Assembly: GCA_934454635.1 (NCBI GenBank)
Contig: CAKSFR010000012.1
Location: 1 to 64,000 of the forward strand
Origin: an uncultured Ruminiclostridium sp.
GTDB lineage: Bacteria; Bacillota; Clostridia; Oscillospirales; Ruminococcaceae
Length of the DNA stretch: 64,000 nucleotides
Direction: 5' to 3'
Part shown: positions 26,483 to 60,441 of the stretch, piece by piece
Position numbering within the stretch: position 1 is the stretch's first letter
How the letters are laid out: every line of letters begins with the position of its first letter
Program-made: the position numbers and the translations under genes
Notes under the pieces: generated by a model
Databases searched by the model: none
What the model saw: the letters and a program-made list of their open reading frames with translations, nothing else
Told to the model about the DNA's origin: nothing

Positions 26483-27097
26483 GTGGCAGGCAATACAAAA
26501 GAACGTATTATGGATGCAGCGCTCGAGCTATTCGCCCAAAACGGCTATCTCGGAACGTCAATGAACGATATTGCAAAACGGCTTGAAATCACAAAAGGCG
26601 CACTGTATAAGCACTATTCAGGCAAGCAGGAAATTCTGGACAGCATTACAAGACGAATGAACGAAATGGACACAGAGCGGGCTGAAGAATATGAGATGCC
26701 GCTTGATTCGCCAAACGGCTTTGCCGAAGCGTATGCACACACGCCGACCGATAAGGTGCGCGCATACAGTATAGCGCAGTTCAGACACTGGACAGAGGAT
26801 TCTTTCTCCTCGCGCTTTCGCAAAATGCTTACGCTTGAACAATACCGCGCCCCAGAACTCGCGCAGCTTTATCAAAACTATTTGGCATCCGGACCGCTCG
26901 ATTACATGAGCGCTATTTTCAGAAGATTAACTGACTCGGACGAATCGGCTGTGCAACTTGCTCTGAATTTCTACGGACCGATGTTCCTGCTTTACAGTGT
27001 TTACGACAACGCGGAGGACAAAAGCGCAGTAATCGCCATACTAGAAAAACATATCGACAATTTTATTTCAAATGTAAAAAACGGAGAGAAATTATGA
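26483..27097 (+). CDS. TetR/AcrR-family transcriptional repressor
   Basis: 204 residues from GTG 26483, six bases after AGGAGG; an ATG two bases earlier is in another frame. The N-terminal helix-turn-helix is KERIMDAALELFAQNGYLGTSMNDIAKRLEITKGALYKHYSGKQ in family form, followed by a ligand-binding domain rich in aromatic residues. It probably represses its own operon through the two palindromes upstream. The stop overlaps the next start (ATGA). Confidence 0.93.
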   Translation: MAGNTKERIMDAALELFAQNGYLGTSMNDIAKRLEITKGALYKHYSGKQEILDSITRRMNEMDTERAEEYEMPLDSPNGFAEAYAHTPTDKVRAYSIAQFRHWTEDSFSSRFRKMLTLEQYRAPELAQLYQNYLASGPLDYMSAIFRRLTDSDESAVQLALNFYGPMFLLYSVYDNAEDKSAVIAILEKHIDNFISNVKNGEKL

Positions 27098-27600
27098 ACG
27101 CAATTATTTACACAACAAACACGGGAAGCGCGGGAGAGTACGCCGAGCTGCTTTCCCGCGAAACAGGAATCCCCGCATATCCGCTCTCGGAAGCGAAAGG
27201 CAATGTCGCTGCGGGCTCTGACGTAATCTACCTTGGCTGGGTAATGGCAGCTTCGGTAAAAGGCTATTCAAAAGCCATAAAGCAATACAATGTACGAGCG
27301 GTCTGCGCAGTCGGAATGTGCCGTACTGGAACACAAACTGAAAATATACGCGAAAAAAATTCAATTCCGCAGGATATTCCCCTGTTCACGCTTCAGGGCA
27401 ATCTGAGCGTTGATAAGCTGCGCGGAATTTATCGCCCCATGATGAAAATTATGGTAAAAAATGTCGGACAGGAACTTTCCACAAAGAAAGACAGAACCCC
27501 CGATGAAGACGATATGCTTGACATGATGCTTCACGGCGAGAACCGCGTAAAAGCCGACAATCTCAGGGACGTTCTGGGCTGGTACAAGGCGCAGAAGTGA
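27094..27600 (+). CDS. Flavodoxin-domain protein
   Basis: 168 residues with a flavodoxin_5-like opening: IIYTTNTGSAGEYAELL matches the phosphate-binding T-x-T-G-x-T loop, and DVIYLGWVMAASVKGY gives the second strand and loop. Probably an FMN-dependent electron-transfer or quinone-related protein. Translationally coupled to the TetR gene, so likely induced with it. Confidence 0.8.
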   Translation: MNAIIYTTNTGSAGEYAELLSRETGIPAYPLSEAKGNVAAGSDVIYLGWVMAASVKGYSKAIKQYNVRAVCAVGMCRTGTQTENIREKNSIPQDIPLFTLQGNLSVDKLRGIYRPMMKIMVKNVGQELSTKKDRTPDEDDMLDMMLHGENRVKADNLRDVLGWYKAQK

Positions 27601-27614
27601 AACGAGGCGAAAAA

Positions 27615-28034
27615 ATGAAGCTGTATTTCGGAAATGCCGTAACAACGGCGACAACAATCATGATTATTGTGCTTATCGGTTTTATCGGCCGGTCGGTGTT
27701 CAAAAGCGCCGATATCCGGTACTGGGGTCGCAGAAGCGCCCTGCTGCTGGTATACGGCTTGGTAATCTGCTGCTTTGCGGCGGCGCGTGACGGACTGGAT
27801 AAAACAATTCAGTGCGCTATTGACGGAAGCTGTCAGCCGGGAATTTTCAAACTCATAAGCGTACCGACAATCATAGGCTGTATCGGCGCGCTGCTGATAA
27901 TCATTGCCGCTGTTGCAACGCCTATCGCAAAAACGCAGGCTGTCCGCCGTATATGGTTTTACATAATGTCGGGCGGTGTGATGCTAAAAGTATTTACAAT
28001 GGAAATTTCAAGGATTATCAGCGCACTTAAATGA
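27615..28034 (+). CDS. Four-TM membrane protein of unknown function
   Basis: 139 residues from ATG 27615 (GAGGCG upstream); GTG 27597 overlapping the previous stop is an alternative. Four hydrophobic segments and a conserved-looking YWGRRSALLLVYGLVICCF stretch written here in part as YWGRRSALLL. No family recognised. Third gene of the TetR operon, 17 bases before the acetyltransferase. Confidence 0.7.
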   Translation: MKLYFGNAVTTATTIMIIVLIGFIGRSVFKSADIRYWGRRSALLLVYGLVICCFAAARDGLDKTIQCAIDGSCQPGIFKLISVPTIIGCIGALLIIIAAVATPIAKTQAVRRIWFYIMSGGVMLKVFTMEISRIISALK

Positions 28035-28051: not shown

Positions 28052-28675
28052 ATGGAGAATAAAATTTATCCTCGTCCGCACGACAAGCAGATAGTGTATC
28101 TGAAAAGCGTTGTGGACGATCCGAATATCGAAATCGGCGAATATACCATATACAATGATTTCGTGAACGACCCATGTGATTTTGAAAAGAACAATGTACT
28201 GTATCACTACCCCATAAACGGCGATAAGCTGAAAATCGGAAAGTTCTGTTCAATCGCCTGCGGCTCAAAATTTCTTTTCACAAGCGCAAATCACGCTTTA
28301 GGCTCTCTTTCAACCTATACTTTCCCTATTTTCTTTGATGAATGGGATCTTGACGCGAAGAATATCCGCAGCGCGTGGGACAACAAGGGCGACATTGTAA
28401 TCGGAAATGATGTCTGGATAGGCTACGAAGCCGTCATTCTCTCGGGCGTCACAATCGGCGACGGCGCAATAATAGGAACCCGTGCCGTTGTAACAAAAGA
28501 TGTCCCGCCTTATACCATCGTGGGAGGAGTTCCCGCAAAACCTATCCGCAGGCGTTTCGATGACGAAACCGTTGAAGAGCTTCTCAGACTGCGCTGGTGG
28601 GATTGGGACAAGGAAAAAATTTCGTGGAACATATCCGCGATCCAATCAGGCGATATCACCGCTTTAAAGCAGTGA
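28052..28675 (+). CDS. Vat/CatB-type xenobiotic acetyltransferase
   Basis: 207 residues of left-handed beta-helix hexapeptide repeats: [33 protein letters not shown] in part, [29 protein letters not shown] in part. The loop [17 protein letters not shown] carries the catalytic His of the streptogramin A (Vat) and chloramphenicol (CatB) acetyltransferases. Likely acetylates a hydroxyl on an antibiotic-like compound with acetyl-CoA. It lies in an operon with a TetR repressor, which fits drug-inducible resistance; the substrate cannot be told from sequence. Confidence 0.9.
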
Positions 28676-28692
28676 TATATAAATAAAAATTC

Positions 28693-28813
28693 AAAGGAGT
28701 ATTTTTTTGAAAAAGTATTATTCATCATCGGAGAGTGTGGGCTGACCGGGAGGTACGGCAAATCCACACTAACCGTTCCTCCCGAAAAAGACGTTAAACA
28801 TCTTCAGGAGGAA
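28693..28813 (+). promoter_or_regulatory. Candidate translational attenuator: leader ORF plus alternative hairpins
   Basis: AAAGGAG (28693) then TTG at 28707 begins a 12-codon ORF, MKKYYSSSESVG, ending at 28745. Segment 1 AGTGTGG (28734-28740, inside the leader) pairs with segment 3 CCACACT (28764-28770). Segment 2 CGGGAGGTACGG (28747-28758) pairs with segment 4 CCGTTCCTCCCG (28773-28784), 11 of 12. TTCCTCC within segment 4 also pairs with the Shine-Dalgarno GGAGGAA (28807-28813) of the next gene. Stalling on the leader would block 1:3, allow 2:4 and free the Shine-Dalgarno. Confidence 0.6.
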
Positions 28814-28819
28814 TTAACC

Positions 28820-29245
28820 ATGAACCGTGAAAATAAACGGAAAACATTTGAAAAGGGTTATTATAAAACACACGCGTGCCGTGACAGCTTTACCTGTAAG
28901 GTCTGCGACAGACTCGTAACGCCCGAAAACGCGGGCACAGACCACCGCAATCATTGCCCGAACTGCCTTTCAAGCCTGCACGTTGATATTGAACCGGGTG
29001 ACCGCCAAAGCGACTGCGGCGGTATAATGGAACCGATTGCCGTATGGGTGCGCAAGAACGGAGAGTGGGCGGTGATTCACCGCTGCAAGCGGTGCGGTGC
29101 GCTCAGCTCCAATCGCGTCGCCGCCGACGACAATCCCATGAAGCTCATGAGCATCGCCATGAAGCCGCTTTGCGAGCCGCCTTTCCCTGTGGAACGCATA
29201 GAAGAAATGGTCGCTCTCATGGGCGGCGACGGTAAAATAAAATAA
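28820..29245 (+). CDS. RNHCP-domain protein
   Basis: 141 residues. The name-giving segment is DHRNHCPNCLSSLHVD (about 41-56), preceded by CKVCDRLV and followed by CRCGALSS-like HRCKRCGALSS, so two zinc-knuckle pairs are visible. The domain is known but its biochemical function is not. RBS AGGAGG eight bases before the ATG can be sequestered by the upstream hairpin arm. It follows the acetyltransferase by 144 bases and precedes a terminator. Confidence 0.88.
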   Translation: MNRENKRKTFEKGYYKTHACRDSFTCKVCDRLVTPENAGTDHRNHCPNCLSSLHVDIEPGDRQSDCGGIMEPIAVWVRKNGEWAVIHRCKRCGALSSNRVAADDNPMKLMSIAMKPLCEPPFPVERIEEMVALMGGDGKIK

Positions 29246-29254
29246 CCCTGTCAG

Positions 29255-29294
29255 AACGCAGAGCTTTGCCTAAACGGCCTTGCTCTGCGTTTTT
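29255..29294 (+). terminator. Terminator of the TetR-to-RNHCP cassette
   Basis: AACGCAGAGC pairs with GCTCTGCGTT, followed by T. The inner bases TTTGCC and GGCC extend it partly. Confidence 0.8.
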
Positions 29295-29337
29295 CGTCCT
29301 TTGTTCTGCCAAAGAAACACGTCTGCACGTTTTCCGC

Positions 29338-29901
29338 CTATTCCCTTTCAAGAATCTCAAGACCCAGCAGATATGCCAGAAAAGCAAAAGAAGATATACC
29401 GAGCAAATTCTTCCCAAACATGAATAATGCAGTCGGAACAACTGCCGCGCCGACAACGCACTCCGTTATCCGCATTGTTCTGCCGAGCTTTTCGGGTCTT
29501 ATGACCCCGAGCAAAAACCTTTCGAGCAGCATTCCCCCGTCAAGCGGTCTTATCGGCAGCATATTCAAAGCTCCCGTAAGCAGATTGACTACGGCGAAAA
29601 GCTGCATTTTTCTGCTTTCTCCGAAACAAAACAGGCAAAAAAGAAGAAAGTTAGCAAAGCACCCGCCAAGCAGCGCGGGAATACTGTAGCCGCCCCCGAC
29701 GTCGAGCCGTATGCCGCCGCCGCAGAAGGTTATTTTACGCGGAATGTTCCCCTCTCCGAGCAGCACGATAATATGCCCAAGCTCATGCAAAAGACAGGAC
29801 AGCAGGCAGAAAACCGCAGTTCCCTCTTTATCCGTGCAAAGCACAAAGCTTAGTACGGCGGGAAACGAGAATTTAACGCAAGCCTTTATTTTTTCAGCCA
29901 T
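29338..29901 (-). CDS. M50 (site-2-protease type) zinc metalloprotease, SpoIVFB-like
   Basis: 187 residues, five to six TM segments. HELGH (39-43) is the zinc motif and LNMLPIRPLDGG (112-123) supplies the third ligand Asp, as in SpoIVFB and other intramembrane proteases. Short, without CBS or PDZ domain. It overlaps the unknown gene upstream by eight bases and lies in an operon with BofA, the inhibitor of SpoIVFB in Bacillus, so pro-sigma-K processing is the natural hypothesis (inference). Confidence 0.88.
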   Translation of the reverse strand: MAEKIKACVKFSFPAVLSFVLCTDKEGTAVFCLLSCLLHELGHIIVLLGEGNIPRKITFCGGGIRLDVGGGYSIPALLGGCFANFLLFCLFCFGESRKMQLFAVVNLLTGALNMLPIRPLDGGMLLERFLLGVIRPEKLGRTMRITECVVGAAVVPTALFMFGKNLLGISSFAFLAYLLGLEILERE

Positions 29902-30784: not shown

Positions 30785-30820
30785 ATTTCTTAGTATTTTA
30801 TGAAAGGACTTTTTCCGACT

Positions 30821-32362
30821 ATGAATAACGAACTTGTGCTTGTAATCGACTTCGGCGGTCAGTATAATCAGCTTATTGCCCGCCGCGTCAGAGAGCATAA
30901 CATCTACTGCGAGGTTATATCCTATAAAACCCCTGTTTCGGAAATAAAGGCGCGCGCGCCAAAGGGAATTATTTTCACAGGCGGTCCGAACAGCGTTTAT
31001 CTGGACAGCTCACCGCGCATGAGCCGAGAGATACTTGAGCTTGGAATCCCCGTGTTGGGAATTTGCTACGGCGCACAATTTATGGTATACGCGCTTGACG
31101 GCGAAATCGGGCCTGCGCATGATTCCTCGCTTTCCGAATACGGCCGTACGGAATGCGAGCTTGACACTTCTTCCCCGCTTTTTGACGGAATTGAGCAGAA
31201 CACTATCGTGTGGATGAGCCACAACGACTATATCACCCGTGTTCCCGAGGGATTTAAGTCTATCGGACACAGTATAAAATGTCCGTTTGGAGCAATGGCT
31301 GACGAAAGCCGCAGACTTTACGGCGTGCAGTTCCATCCGGAAGTAAATCATACCGTGCGCGGATTTGATATGCTTGGAAACTTCCTGTACAAGATATGCG
31401 GCTGCAAGGGCGACTGGAACATGAAAAATTACGCACAGACAGCTATCGCGCAGATTCGCGAAAAAGTCGGCGACGGAAAGGTTCTCCTCGCGCTTTCGGG
31501 CGGAGTTGACAGTTCCGTTGCCTGCGCGCTGCTTGCAAAGGCTGTCGGACCTCAGCTCACCTGCGTATTTGTCGATCACGGATTTATGCGCAAGAACGAG
31601 GGCGACGAAGTTGAAGCGGCTTTCAAGGACTGGGACATAAACTTTATCCGCGTAGACGCTTCCGAGCGCTTTCTAGGTAGGCTTGAGGGCGTAAGCGACC
31701 CTGAAACAAAGCGCAAGACTATCGGCGAAGAATTTATCCGCGTTTTCGAGGAAGAAGCAAAGAAAATCGGCAAGGTTGATTTTCTTGTTCAAGGCACGAT
31801 TTATCCCGATGTTATCGAGAGCGGAACCGGCGATGCGGCAGTTATAAAATCACACCATAACGTCGGCGGACTTCCCGATTATGTTGACTTTAAAGAAATA
31901 ATTGAACCTCTCCGTCTCCTGTTTAAGGACGAGGTAAGAAAACTCGGAACCGAACTCGGTCTTTCAGACGTTCTTGTATGGCGTCAGCCGTTCCCCGGTC
32001 CCGGACTGGCAATACGCATCATTGGAGAGATAACTCGCGAAAAACTTCACACACTACAGGACGCAGATTATATTTTCCGCGAGGAAATTGCGAAAGCGGG
32101 ACTTGACAGAAGCATCAACCAGTACTTTGCGGTGCTGACAAATATGCGCTCGGTAGGTGTAATGGGCGATGACCGAACATACGATTACACACTCGCACTG
32201 CGCGGAGTTACGACAACCGACTTCATGACGGCGGATTTTGCAAGGATTCCGTATGACGTACTCGAAAAAGCAAGCGTAAGAATCGTAAACGAAGTTAAAA
32301 ATATCAACAGAATCGTGTACGATATTACAAGCAAGCCTCCGGCGACGATTGAGTGGGAATAA
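30821..32362 (+). CDS. guaA: GMP synthase (glutamine-hydrolysing)
   Basis: 513 residues from ATG 30821 (GAAAGGA upstream). Converts XMP to GMP using glutamine and ATP. Class I amidotransferase domain: GICYGAQF nucleophile elbow (Cys about 80) and HPEV His/Glu; ATP-PPase loop [10 protein letters not shown] (about 227-236); C-terminal dimerisation domain ending KPPATIEWE. The final 12 bases are the attachment core for two tandem mobile elements, but the coding sequence stays intact. Confidence 0.97.
32351..32362 (+). repeat. Attachment core attL of element 1 (guaA 3' end)
   Basis: GAGTGGGAATAA, the last four codons of guaA including the stop. Exact copies at 37153-37164 and 47607-47618 mark the right ends of two tandem elements. 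Confidence 0.88.
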
Positions 32363-32553: not shown

Positions 32554-33660
32554 TTATTCAAGCTCCTTGTTTGTTCTTACGGACTGTAGTCCTCGCTGCC
32601 GCAGCTCACGGGAAACTTCACCGTAATTTACTCCGCTTATGCCGATCGCTCGCTTCAAAATGCGGTTTTGATTTTCCACATCCGCCAACCGTTCGACCAT
32701 TTTTCGGATTTCCTTTTGGTTTTCAGCCTTTGCAGCATTTAGATCGGCGGCGAGACGGTCATTTTTTGTCCTTTCTTCGGCAAGCTCTTTTTTCAAAGTC
32801 TTATTTTGTTTTTTGCTTGTTTTTGCGGTATTTTTCAGTTCTTGTGCTTGCTGCGGTGAAAGTCCCTTGAAGCCACCCGTAAATCTTTGGGGCGTGGTAT
32901 CAATCTGATCCAGTTCCTTTTCGGAGAGTTCTTTGGAAAGGGTGGAAAGTTCTTTTTTCTTTTTTGTTTGCTGATCCTCAAGCTGTCCAATTTTCACTTT
33001 AATTTCGTCGGCTTTGCATTGAAGCTCGCGAAGTTCCTGTTCCGTGTCCCTTTTTAATTCTGCCGTCTCAAGGTGACGGCGCGGCTTTTCGGCGTTTGGA
33101 TCTTCCAAATCCGCACGGTTTCCACGTTCCAACCCCCACTTCTTTCCGACTTTTGTAAAGAAATCGTCCTGCAACTTCTGCAAATCCTTTTTGCCGCCCA
33201 AAACACTTTTTGCCGAAAGTCGTCCGTCCGATGTCAACGGAACAAAATCGAGGTGCAAATGCGGCGTCTTCTCGTCTCTATGAACAACCGCCGAGATTAT
33301 ATTTTCCTCGCCGTATCTGTCGGCGGCGAATTTATAACATTCCTTAAAAAACGAGCGCTCCTGCTCGGCGGACAAACGTTCGAAAAATGCCTTATCCGAA
33401 GTAAAAAGCACCTCGCACAATAAAACAGCGTCCTTGCGTATGACTTTTTGACCTTTGTAGCCGCTTTGAATACGCGCTTGGACTGCCTTGTTATAGCTCA
33501 AATCTGTTTCCTTTAACGCATAATTCTTAGCGCTTTTCTTAAAATCAATGTCGGGGTTGCTATTGGAGTGTTTGCGCTCACGCCGGTTGTGAATTTGCAC
33601 TCCCGCTATGTCCTTTGCACCGCCGTTGATTTTCTGAATCCGGCACACACCCGCGCTCAT
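32554..33660 (-). CDS. MobV-family relaxase (plasmid mobilization/recombination, Mob/Pre)
   Basis: 368 residues. The N-terminal half has the family features: HNRRERKHSNSNPDID near residue 24, and the three-histidine metal motif in VVHRDEKTPHLHLDFVPL (about 130-148). Cleaves oriT and pilots the single strand during transfer. The C-terminal third is a long coiled coil (Lys/Glu/Gln heptads). ATG behind GAAAGGAG. The hairpin cluster just upstream (33687-33790) is the likely oriT. Confidence 0.92.
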   Translation of the reverse strand: MSAGVCRIQKINGGAKDIAGVQIHNRRERKHSNSNPDIDFKKSAKNYALKETDLSYNKAVQARIQSGYKGQKVIRKDAVLLCEVLFTSDKAFFERLSAEQERSFFKECYKFAADRYGEENIISAVVHRDEKTPHLHLDFVPLTSDGRLSAKSVLGGKKDLQKLQDDFFTKVGKKWGLERGNRADLEDPNAEKPRRHLETAELKRDTEQELRELQCKADEIKVKIGQLEDQQTKKKKELSTLSKELSEKELDQIDTTPQRFTGGFKGLSPQQAQELKNTAKTSKKQNKTLKKELAEERTKNDRLAADLNAAKAENQKEIRKMVERLADVENQNRILKRAIGISGVNYGEVSRELRQRGLQSVRTNKELE

Positions 33661-47507: not shown

Positions 47508-47606
47508 AAAATCTGATAGTCCATAATCTATGGATAATTCAAGTAATACAAATACTATAAGCTAAATTTCCTATACAGATTTGTTTAAGACAGGTTTGTC
47601 GGGAGC

Positions 47607-47618
47607 GAGTGGGAATAA
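47607..47618 (+). repeat. Right attachment core attR of element 2
   Basis: GAGTGGGAATAA, third copy of the guaA end. The sequence after it is probably the original downstream flank of guaA. Confidence 0.87.
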
Positions 47619-47625
47619 GACAACA

Positions 47626-47667
47626 CCCCCCGAAAGCCTTATTTAAAAGGTTTTCGGGGGGTTTTTA
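47626..47667 (+). terminator. Probable native guaA terminator, displaced by 15 kb
   Basis: CCCCCCGAAA(A)GCCTT pairs with AAGG(T)TTTCGGGGGG, followed by TTTTTATTT. It starts eight bases after attR, the place expected for the guaA terminator in an empty site. Confidence 0.75.
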
Positions 47668-48215
47668 TTTGTAAATGCAAAAGGAATCATTGAAAAAATT
47701 AGGTGTCAGTGCTAAATTCAATGCACCGTTTTTCAGTAGCATCAGTAATAAACACACTAAATTCCCATTATCAAACGTCTTAACGAAAAATAGCTGAGCA
47801 GGGTTACCTGGTAATTAGCGGAAAGATACCCAGAGGTTATCTGCAAAAGCAATGGTATGTCTTGTAAAATCAGAGCATTCATTGAATAAGGCAAGAAAAA
47901 GAAAAAGCATACTTGCTCGCAGACGAGGAGAACCAATATCTCCGGTCCATAAACGAAACAGTGGTACGCTTTGATAATACTATAGCATATTTCGTGAAAA
48001 ATGTCAATCCAAAACAACGGATTAAATTTGTAAAGCCGACAACGCTTCATTCCATAGAATGCCAATCATTCAAGGAGAACACGCTGTCGGCTTTTGGTAT
48101 TAAAAGAGCTAGCCTCTTATAATCTTTCTCGGCTTCAAAAACTGCCGCTGTTTATATTATATGCAATAAAACCGAATTTGTCAATAGCTTTTAATAAAAA
48201 TTTAACGTTTAAGCG
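47668..48215. other. Intergenic region without a supported gene
   Basis: Only short spurious frames. A hairpin AAGCCGACA/TGTCGGCTT with a long loop (about 48033-48096) followed by T is the one visible structure. No RBS-preceded ORF seen. Confidence 0.6.
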
Positions 48216-49847: not shown

Positions 49848-50422
49848 CGTTTCGCCCTGAGATAATCTTTCTTAAGGGAATGAAATGTTTTTATAGATTA
49901 AGCAGGCAGTTGAAGTCGTTTTGGGCAATCAGAGCCCTATAGTCGTGAACAGCTGTCTGCTTTTCTTTGCATTAAAAAGAGCCATGCTTCTGCACGGCTC
50001 TTGATAATCATATTTTTTGTTCGATTTTCATCTATTCGAGTCTTGGCTGATATGCAACCGAAAATAAGCTCCGAAATATATCCACTCGAATGAACATACT
50101 CTTCATCACTTAGCAGCATACTCCCGCTTTCGCTTCGTTATGCGCCCGACAGCTCCTGCCGTCTGCTCGGCAGATCGCTCCGCCGCTGTTATTATTATAA
50201 ACAAAAACCTCGACTTTGTCAATAGCCGAGGTTAAATTTTTATTAGGCGGTTTTCTGCCGGCTGTCAGCCGCAATAACCTTTCGGGCATCTTTAAGTCTT
50301 TGCGTTTTTACCTGCCCAAGTACAGTACAACTTATCGGCTAGCCTTTTCCGAAAATATTGTTCGCTCACCGTTGGCGACTAACAATTGCATTGTTCTTTA
50401 ACATAGCATTTCTTTACGCTTG
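49848..50422. other. Intergenic region with hairpins, no supported gene
   Basis: AAGAGCC/GGCTCTT near 49978-50003 and AACCTCG/CGAGGTT near 50207-50234 (followed by T) are terminator-like hairpins. No RBS-preceded ORF or RNA family is recognisable. Confidence 0.55.
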
Positions 50423-60221: not shown

Positions 60222-60229
60222 AATGCACA

Positions 60230-60441
60230 GATAGAGGTGCGGAATCTATCAGTACCCTCGGCGATAACAGTTCAGCCTGTTGCCGCGCGGAAAGGAGCTT
60301 CCGCCGAAGCCTGCAATTGCTGTAACTTGCAGAGCTGGTTGTGCATTTAATAAGTGCACGACTGTCATCTTAAGATGGAGTGCTATCATCAATAAATGTT
60401 TTTATTTTGTTTGATGAAGCCGGCTGAGTGTCGGTTTTTTT
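60230..60441 (+). promoter_or_regulatory. Lysine riboswitch (L box) with terminator
   Basis: Aptamer 60230 to about 60390: GATAGAGGTGCGGA, ATCAGTA, GGAAAGGAGCTTCCGCCGAAG split by the third helix, GAGCTGGTTG, GACTGTCATC and GGAGTGCTATC are the conserved blocks; GATAG/CTATC closes helix P1. The expression platform ends with CCGGC/GTCGG and seven T (60420-60441). Lysine binding should favour termination before asd. Confidence 0.93.

Follow-up and report, generated by a model that had tools for sequence, protein, structure and literature searches.

A likely family of ribosome-sensing translational attenuators, mainly in Clostridia, ahead of RNHCP and three unrelated gene families

How a gene for an RNHCP-domain protein is controlled, and whether a very short open reading frame (ORF) just ahead of it serves as a ribosome sensor, is the question raised by this locus in an uncultured Ruminiclostridium sp. 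In the ermC/ermA scheme, a leader arm pairs with segment 2 while segment 3 masks the Shine-Dalgarno (SD) sequence of the target gene; when a ribosome stalls on the leader, segments 2 and 3 pair and the SD is freed. The original prediction described such an arrangement in the window (the whole 64,000-nucleotide stretch analysed, from contig CAKSFR010000012.1), i.e. a 12-codon leader ORF with its own ribosome-binding site, four pairing segments and the RNHCP start, and direct reading of the sequence finds each of these at the positions claimed. The features are as follows.

26483..27097, + strand: TetR-family regulator, upstream of the Vat-like gene (context)
28052..28675, + strand: Vat/CatB-like hexapeptide acetyltransferase (Vat family model 237.2 bits, below the cut-off of 300)
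28693..28699, + strand: SD of the leader ORF, AAAGGAG, with GGAG at 28696-28699 (sequence; aligned with relatives)
28707..28745, + strand: leader ORF, TTG start at 28707, 12 codons MKKYYSSSESVG, TGA at 28743-28745 (sequence; 163 leaders compared)
28731..28736, + strand: leader codons 9-10, GAG AGT (E-S), in the conserved E-[I/S]-V slot (stall scan; peptide conservation)
28734..28770, + strand: leader hairpin, arms 28734-28747 and 28752-28770, loop GGGA at 28748-28751 (minimum free energy, MFE; covariation)
28747..28758, + strand: segment 2, SD-like CGGGAGGTACGG, predicted partner of the anti-SD once the leader hairpin opens (pairing tests; stall scan)
28773..28784, + strand: anti-SD segment CCGTTCCTCCCG, predicted partner of the RNHCP SD by default or of segment 2 after stalling (fold; covariation)
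28807..28813, + strand: RNHCP SD GGAGGAA, masked in the predicted default fold (sequence; MFE; stall scan)
28820..29245, + strand: RNHCP-domain protein, 141 aa, ATG at 28820, the gene taken to be controlled (PF12647, E=2.7e-40)

A leader ORF with its own SD therefore stands ahead of the gene, as in ermC-type attenuators. The RNHCP protein is 87% identical to that of Oscillibacter sp. ER4. The proposed pairings can be followed letter by letter: segment 1 (AGTGTGG, 28734-28740) is fully complementary to segment 3 (CCACACT, 28764-28770), segment 2 pairs with segment 4 (the anti-SD) with one mismatch, and TTCCTCC (28776-28782) in segment 4 is fully complementary to the RNHCP SD. The conserved heart of segment 1, overlooked earlier, is the apical hairpin with the GGGA loop, of which the 1:3 pairing forms the basal stem. 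The claimed ermC order holds only if 1:3 plus this apical hairpin is equated with the ‘1:2’ pairing of ermC. An ermC attenuator is figured in PMC13410324.

Folding of 28690-28830 yields an MFE of -40.9 kcal/mol, against -30.64 +/- 3.84 for shuffled sequences (2 of 200 as low). The MFE fold contains the leader hairpin with its GGGA loop and closes TTCCTCC on the RNHCP SD. Across 90 elements, the mean unpaired SD is 0.303, versus 0.416 in shuffles. The target SD is thus predicted to be sequestered by default, as ermC-type attenuators require.

A stall scan was computed on the window RNA, the ribosome covering positions -15 to +14 relative to the P codon. When codon 8 or 9 occupies the P site, computed pairing of segment 2 with the anti-SD rises from 0 to 0.96-0.99 and SD masking falls from 0.998 to 0.01-0.04; footprints at codons 1-6 or 11-13 leave the SD masked, and codons 7 and 10 are intermediate. 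The original prediction that 1:3 excludes 2:4 and that stalling reverses the masking is matched by this computed swap, with mean SD access at the best stall reaching only ~0.5 (0.167 unstalled). Among 164 elements (see below), the best computed stall raises SD access by >0.3 in only 80, and the commonest P-site residue there is E (24 of 80). In 90 elements drawn at random, mean access changes by +0.12 to +0.18 at 15-26 nt before the core and by -0.13 to -0.16 at 0-11 nt, while 270 shuffles stay within 0.04; gains >0.3 occur in 50 of the 90 real elements versus 65 of the 270 shuffles. According to these models, a stall at one leader site would open the SD.

A genome-contig scan gave 570 confirmed RNHCP loci, of which the best 80 were used and up to 200 nt upstream were read. 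The common upstream pattern consists of an SD, a short ORF, GCTGACCGGGAGGTTTGCG or close, CAAGCCTCCC or close, AGGAGG and the start. Three covariance models, whose E-values are rough, were used: R1 (43 of 49 elements in an RNHCP alignment, window included; L003, L021, L024, L025, L044 and L046 omitted), R2 (89 mixed elements) and R3 (type-2 elements only; see below). R1 matches upstream of RNHCP in 47 of the best 80 loci (E 2.6e-5 or better), 42 of which had gone into building it, and its 74.5 bits on the window likewise arise by construction. R3, made from 43 type-2 elements with the window excluded, recovers 28693-28822 at a rough E=7e-7 in 87,767 bases, which confirms that an attenuator-like element precedes RNHCP here. 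Rfam has nothing at gathering threshold over the element, and even up to E=1 none of its families matches in 28500-29000; over elements of five other loci it has no match up to E=0.1.

Orthologues lacking the leader had been named as evidence against the prediction. Of the best 80 loci, 33 have no confident element (L021 among them is a weak variant, E=0.029); the rule is thereby limited but, in our view, not refuted. In 13 of these 33 (e.g. L037, L034, L023), a MarR-family gene (PF12802 in L037) ends 28-33 nt upstream of RNHCP, apparently an alternative control. At L164 and L166 (minus strand), RNHCP seems to have a CTG start behind the attenuator; L277 and L292 are the same two places. Elsewhere in the window, weak model matches at 47575-47681 were rejected, being by eye a terminator-like hairpin, and Rfam marks a drum RNA at 50005-50111 and a lysine riboswitch at 60224-60393.

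Leader peptides were compared over 164 elements from 184 loci, 16 being left out because they were duplicates or had no readable gene; L169, L207, L228 and L235 are also absent. Leader counts refer to 163, the cut L131 being dropped, and for most of these an SD-like word was a selection requirement. Two types occur. In type 1 (113 of 163), the stop lies directly before the core (TGA 63, TAA 43, TAG 7); the window leader belongs here, with its stop directly 5' of CCGGGAGG. In type 2 (50 of 163), the frame is one base off and continues into hairpin sequence (..REVC.. or similar) to a stop past it. In one subset, GNAT leaders are type 1 throughout (48 of 48), four methyltransferase leaders and one RsgA-like leader are type 2, and RNHCP leaders are of both types (49 type 1, 22 type 2); an exception is the GNAT gene of L330, which has a read-on leader. 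A +1 frameshift at UGA-C, considered because the two types are one base apart in register, was rejected: UAA and UAG serve as well, and no slippery re-pairing is seen.

Both types share E/D/A-[I/S/L]-V/A ~17 nt before the core. Among 104 distinct type-1 leaders, the middle slot holds I in 65 and S in 17, the rest being L, R, T, V or E. Since the frame past V differs between the types while the RNA is alike, sensing probably depends on the peptide as far as V, and what follows probably acts as RNA. Close type-1 leader pairs, which are not independent of each other, show 60 synonymous versus 46 non-synonymous differences, where 24.6% synonymous would be expected; in type 2, the figures (2 versus 2) are too few to use. 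This pattern indicates that the type-1 leader peptide is under selection, i.e. translated, as in ermC-type systems. Leader conservation thus agrees with the original prediction, the ORFs being kept (113 type-1 stops) and close differences being mostly synonymous.

The Erm leader peptides carry the arrest motifs IFVI, IAVV and RLR. None of these is found in the 143 distinct leader peptides, and [RK]x[RK] after residue 3 occurs in 5 of them; with no known arrest motif in the peptides, the drug is not named by motif. The two slots before the E slot are rich in A, S or T (45% and 31%, versus 10-13% in the four preceding slots), and 91 of 143 peptides have such a residue there. This context resembles the preference of chloramphenicol and linezolid. 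Naming the drug from it was nevertheless rejected, as K/R and L are common there too.

Covariation was scored on the 43 aligned RNHCP elements. The leader hairpin scores 0.247 versus 0.157 when shuffled (0 of 500 shuffles reach it; slid controls <=0.089). On stricter counts, it has 3 pairs changed on both sides versus 2.5 shuffled (267 of 500 reach this), and further pair types are reached by 426 of 500. The anti-SD:SD helix is paired in 96% of cells, with 4 pairs changed on both sides and GC/AU exchange at several; for the masked state, the stricter counts are reached by 5 (both-side changes) and 461 (further pair types) of 500 shuffles. The pairing of segment 2 with the anti-SD scores 0.104 versus 0.069 shuffled (1 of 500), with a slide control that is not clean (0.106 at +1, 0.104 in register) and stricter counts reached by 10 (both-side changes) and 239 (further pair types) of 500.

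An alignment-free comparison set each element's own partner against partners swapped in from unlike elements, with p values made optimistic by relatedness: own partners pair better in 125 of 163 elements for 2:anti-SD (p 5.6e-9), in 129 of 163 for anti-SD:SD (p 2.8e-18) and in 126 of 162 for the basal stem (p 5.2e-15). The core and its partner also change together. GAGAGG occurs with CCTCTC in 16 of 17 elements (14 GNAT and the RNHCP loci L158 and L178; the 17th, L008, has TCTCTC), while of the 117 elements with GGGAGG, 100 have CCTCCC, 3 have CCTCTC and 14 lack both. Compensatory change in the stems, which the prediction had called for, is thus supported by the scores, the own-versus-swapped comparison and GAGAGG/CCTCTC, but not by the stricter pair counts or by one slide control. 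Each of the two rival folds also appears in unguided RNAalifold: the 43 RNHCP elements give the masked state, 43 type-2 elements the anti-SD:SD stem, and 89 mixed elements the 2:anti-SD stem. Mutually exclusive alternative pairing, as in ermC-type attenuators, appears to be backed by covariation.

The attenuator precedes four unrelated families: RNHCP, GNAT acetyltransferases, RsgA-like GTPases and SAM methyltransferases (Pfam on cargo examples: PF03193, PF00583/PF13527, PF08241). Over all loci read, 208 distinct proteins (cut ones included) comprise 88 RNHCP, 65 GNAT, 49 RsgA-like and 6 methyltransferases. The finding is larger than the original prediction: likely a family of ribosome-sensing translational attenuators, mainly in Clostridia, with four cargo families. 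Because the genome samples overlap, the following counts are not additive. R1 matched 52 places in 48 of 394 genomes of one order (G001, Oscillibacter locus; 50 read: 12 RNHCP, 36 GNAT, 1 RsgA-like, 1 other, L145) and 38 places in 38 of 295 genomes of another (G008, Blautia locus; 17 RNHCP, 13 GNAT, 5 methyltransferase, 3 other, L181-L183). R2 matched 39 places in 34 of 391 genomes at class level (30 read: 9 RNHCP, 10 GNAT, 11 RsgA-like) and 23 places in 23 of 348 genomes at phylum level (3 RNHCP, 6 GNAT, 12 RsgA-like, 2 other, L232 and L234); in the class-level assignments, L188 is called RsgA-like from a masked start, and L199, whose GNAT gene is joined unusually to the leader region, and L208 are called GNAT from frame lists. 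R3 matched in 1 of 7 genomes (order of G867, only 7 genomes), 36 of 246 and 31 of 67; of 54 places read at this stage, 52 fall in the four families, and 15 were already known under other locus names. Of the remaining two, L322 begins like GNAT before breaking off, and at L329 a short frame follows an RsgA-type leader. No further cargo family was found among the places read, and almost every match led to one of these four.

The switch can occur twice in a genome: with RNHCP and GNAT (G003, G373), with RNHCP and RsgA-like (G785, G1406, G1411, G1413) and with GNAT and RsgA-like (G422). Each of the 12 genomes tested (including G1050, G942 and G1100) has a second, shorter RsgA (open frames of 295-338 codons), the attenuator-linked one being additional and longer (360-402 codons). 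NCBIfam has no match for RNHCP and only matches far below cut-off for the GNAT and methyltransferase proteins, i.e. no named resistance family. On the Selenomonas ruminantium plasmid pSRC1 (a Negativicute), the element lies directly 5' of an N-acetyltransferase gene. Plasmids seldom carry RNHCP itself (4 of 72,556 records, each at <60% identity). Among viral contigs, the type-1 pattern has 3 matches (R2 99.7-100.1 bits) and the type-2 pattern 0; phages gave no match to a query of one GNAT element. Pusillibacter faecalis pMM59_01 (L263) has a GNAT-type attenuator at 2501-2620, with no gene directly behind it in the incomplete PLSDB table.

The Vat cassette had been offered as a clue to an antibiotic signal. 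A Vat-like gene is indeed present in the window, but in the fetched flanks of the best 80 RNHCP loci only L008 has a strong match and L061 a weak one; with so little conservation, this argument counts for little. At 6 of 80 loci (L005, L010, L018, L019, L024, L052), the attenuator and RNHCP have a TetR-family gene 5' of them, as they do in the window. Between the TetR and Vat-like genes (27094-28034) are two small ORFs (168 and 145 aa) with no Pfam match; L008, with its Vat homologue in the flank, also contains a homologue of the 168-aa ORF. Further downstream, a plasmid mobilisation/recombination enzyme (Mob_Pre, PF01076, E=2.5e-53) is encoded at 32554-33660 (minus strand), adjoining a GMP synthase gene at 30800-32362, which hints at a mobile element.

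The element is very probably a ribosome-sensing translational attenuator in which a stall near E-[I/S]-V exposes the RNHCP start; the mechanism class, translational attenuation by ribosome sensing, is well supported. The basis is sequence, conservation, covariation, leader selection, computed switching and shared cargo, from which we infer the stalling, the stall codon, the drug and the protective role. By default, the leader would be translated to its stop and the leader hairpin would re-form over segment 2; the anti-SD would pair with the RNHCP SD, and little RNHCP would be made. A ribosome stalling near E-[I/S]-V (in the window, with codon 8 or 9 in the P site) would hold the 5' arm of the hairpin, and the freed segment 2 would capture the anti-SD, exposing the RNHCP start. 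The signal is likely a ribosome inhibitor. As the switch also drives GNAT, extra-RsgA and methyltransferase genes, it would mark a small inducible group of genes whose products modify drugs or tend the ribosome.

Uncharged tRNA (Val, Ile or Glu) rather than a drug might be sensed, with the ribosome waiting at the E-I-V codons. The conserved E, I/S and V slots would fit, and a ribosome whose A site is empty at the I/S codon would have its P site at one of the best computed positions; this reading is improbable, however, because the leaders have no single-codon run, the middle slot is varied (I in 65 of 104, S in 17, others), and none of the four cargo families is, to our knowledge, a biosynthetic or tRNA-charging enzyme. 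Still less probable is transcription attenuation, in which the anti-SD:SD or another hairpin terminates and stalling lets the polymerase through. Related leader-ORF systems do work so: hflXr/rli80 of Listeria (PMC6310831) joins a transcription terminator to a 14-aa RLR peptide, and it resembles the present element in its leader ORF, its alternative RNA folds and its place before an additional ribosome GTPase gene (HflX in Listeria, RsgA at some of the present loci). Here, in contrast, it is the SD that is masked, there is no RLR peptide, no terminator-like site lies on the + strand of 28400-29350, the hairpin has the SD itself as its second arm, and a T-rich stretch follows right after in 9 of 164 elements.

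The conserved GGGA-loop hairpin and the alternative folds might also be those of a ligand-binding riboswitch or a protein-binding hairpin with an incidental ORF. The absence of an Rfam match up to E=1 in 28500-29000, the mostly synonymous differences of close leaders (60 to 46), the ORF kept in both registers with the same hairpin, and loop letters explained by anti-SD pairing make this very doubtful, slightly more so than transcription attenuation. Plain translational coupling or a chance hairpin, without regulation, would suit leaders that end shortly 5' of the gene; it deserves almost no credence, as many Clostridia and the Selenomonas plasmid carry the element, with coordinated substitutions.

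The favoured reading, translational attenuation by a stalled ribosome, has partial counterparts. With ermC/ermA the element shares a leader ORF with its own SD, a masked target SD and stall-driven re-pairing; it differs in its motif (E-[I/S]-V, not IFVI, IAVV or RLR), in segment 2 (an SD-like GGGAGG in the GGGA loop) and in its cargo (RNHCP, GNAT, RsgA-like or methyltransferase). The uORFC-6-1 motif upstream of hflX is likewise a comparative-genomics uORF class before a ribosome-tending gene, but it has an RLR peptide and is mostly found in Bacillales; the consulted portion of PMC8632094 does not describe the present element. In toiL-topAI of E. coli (PMC12121999), a uORF similarly detects ribosome stalling and exposes a ribosome-binding site; several inhibitor classes act, tylosin seems to stall at Val5, and the system differs in host, genes (topAI-yjhQ) and coupling to Rho termination. 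Among the open-access full-text matches listed, no description of the element was found. The open-access search for RNHCP gave two chemistry papers and no biological one, and no attenuator for RNHCP genes was found there, which agrees with the original prediction.

What is new here is one attenuator common to four unrelated cargo families. It provides a first functional handle on RNHCP and links it, through shared control, with genes for a GNAT, a methyltransferase and an additional RsgA. With about even confidence, these genes may be regarded as an unrecognised, ribosome-stress-induced set of Clostridia, i.e. undiscovered resistance or ribosome-rescue factors answering one natural class of ribosome inhibitor, in which RNHCP would bind zinc and act on the ribosome or the drug. 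If the leader is drug-inducible, a single reporter would suffice to test inducible ribosome protection in gut Clostridia, and the leader could serve as a probe for the inhibitor that these bacteria meet.
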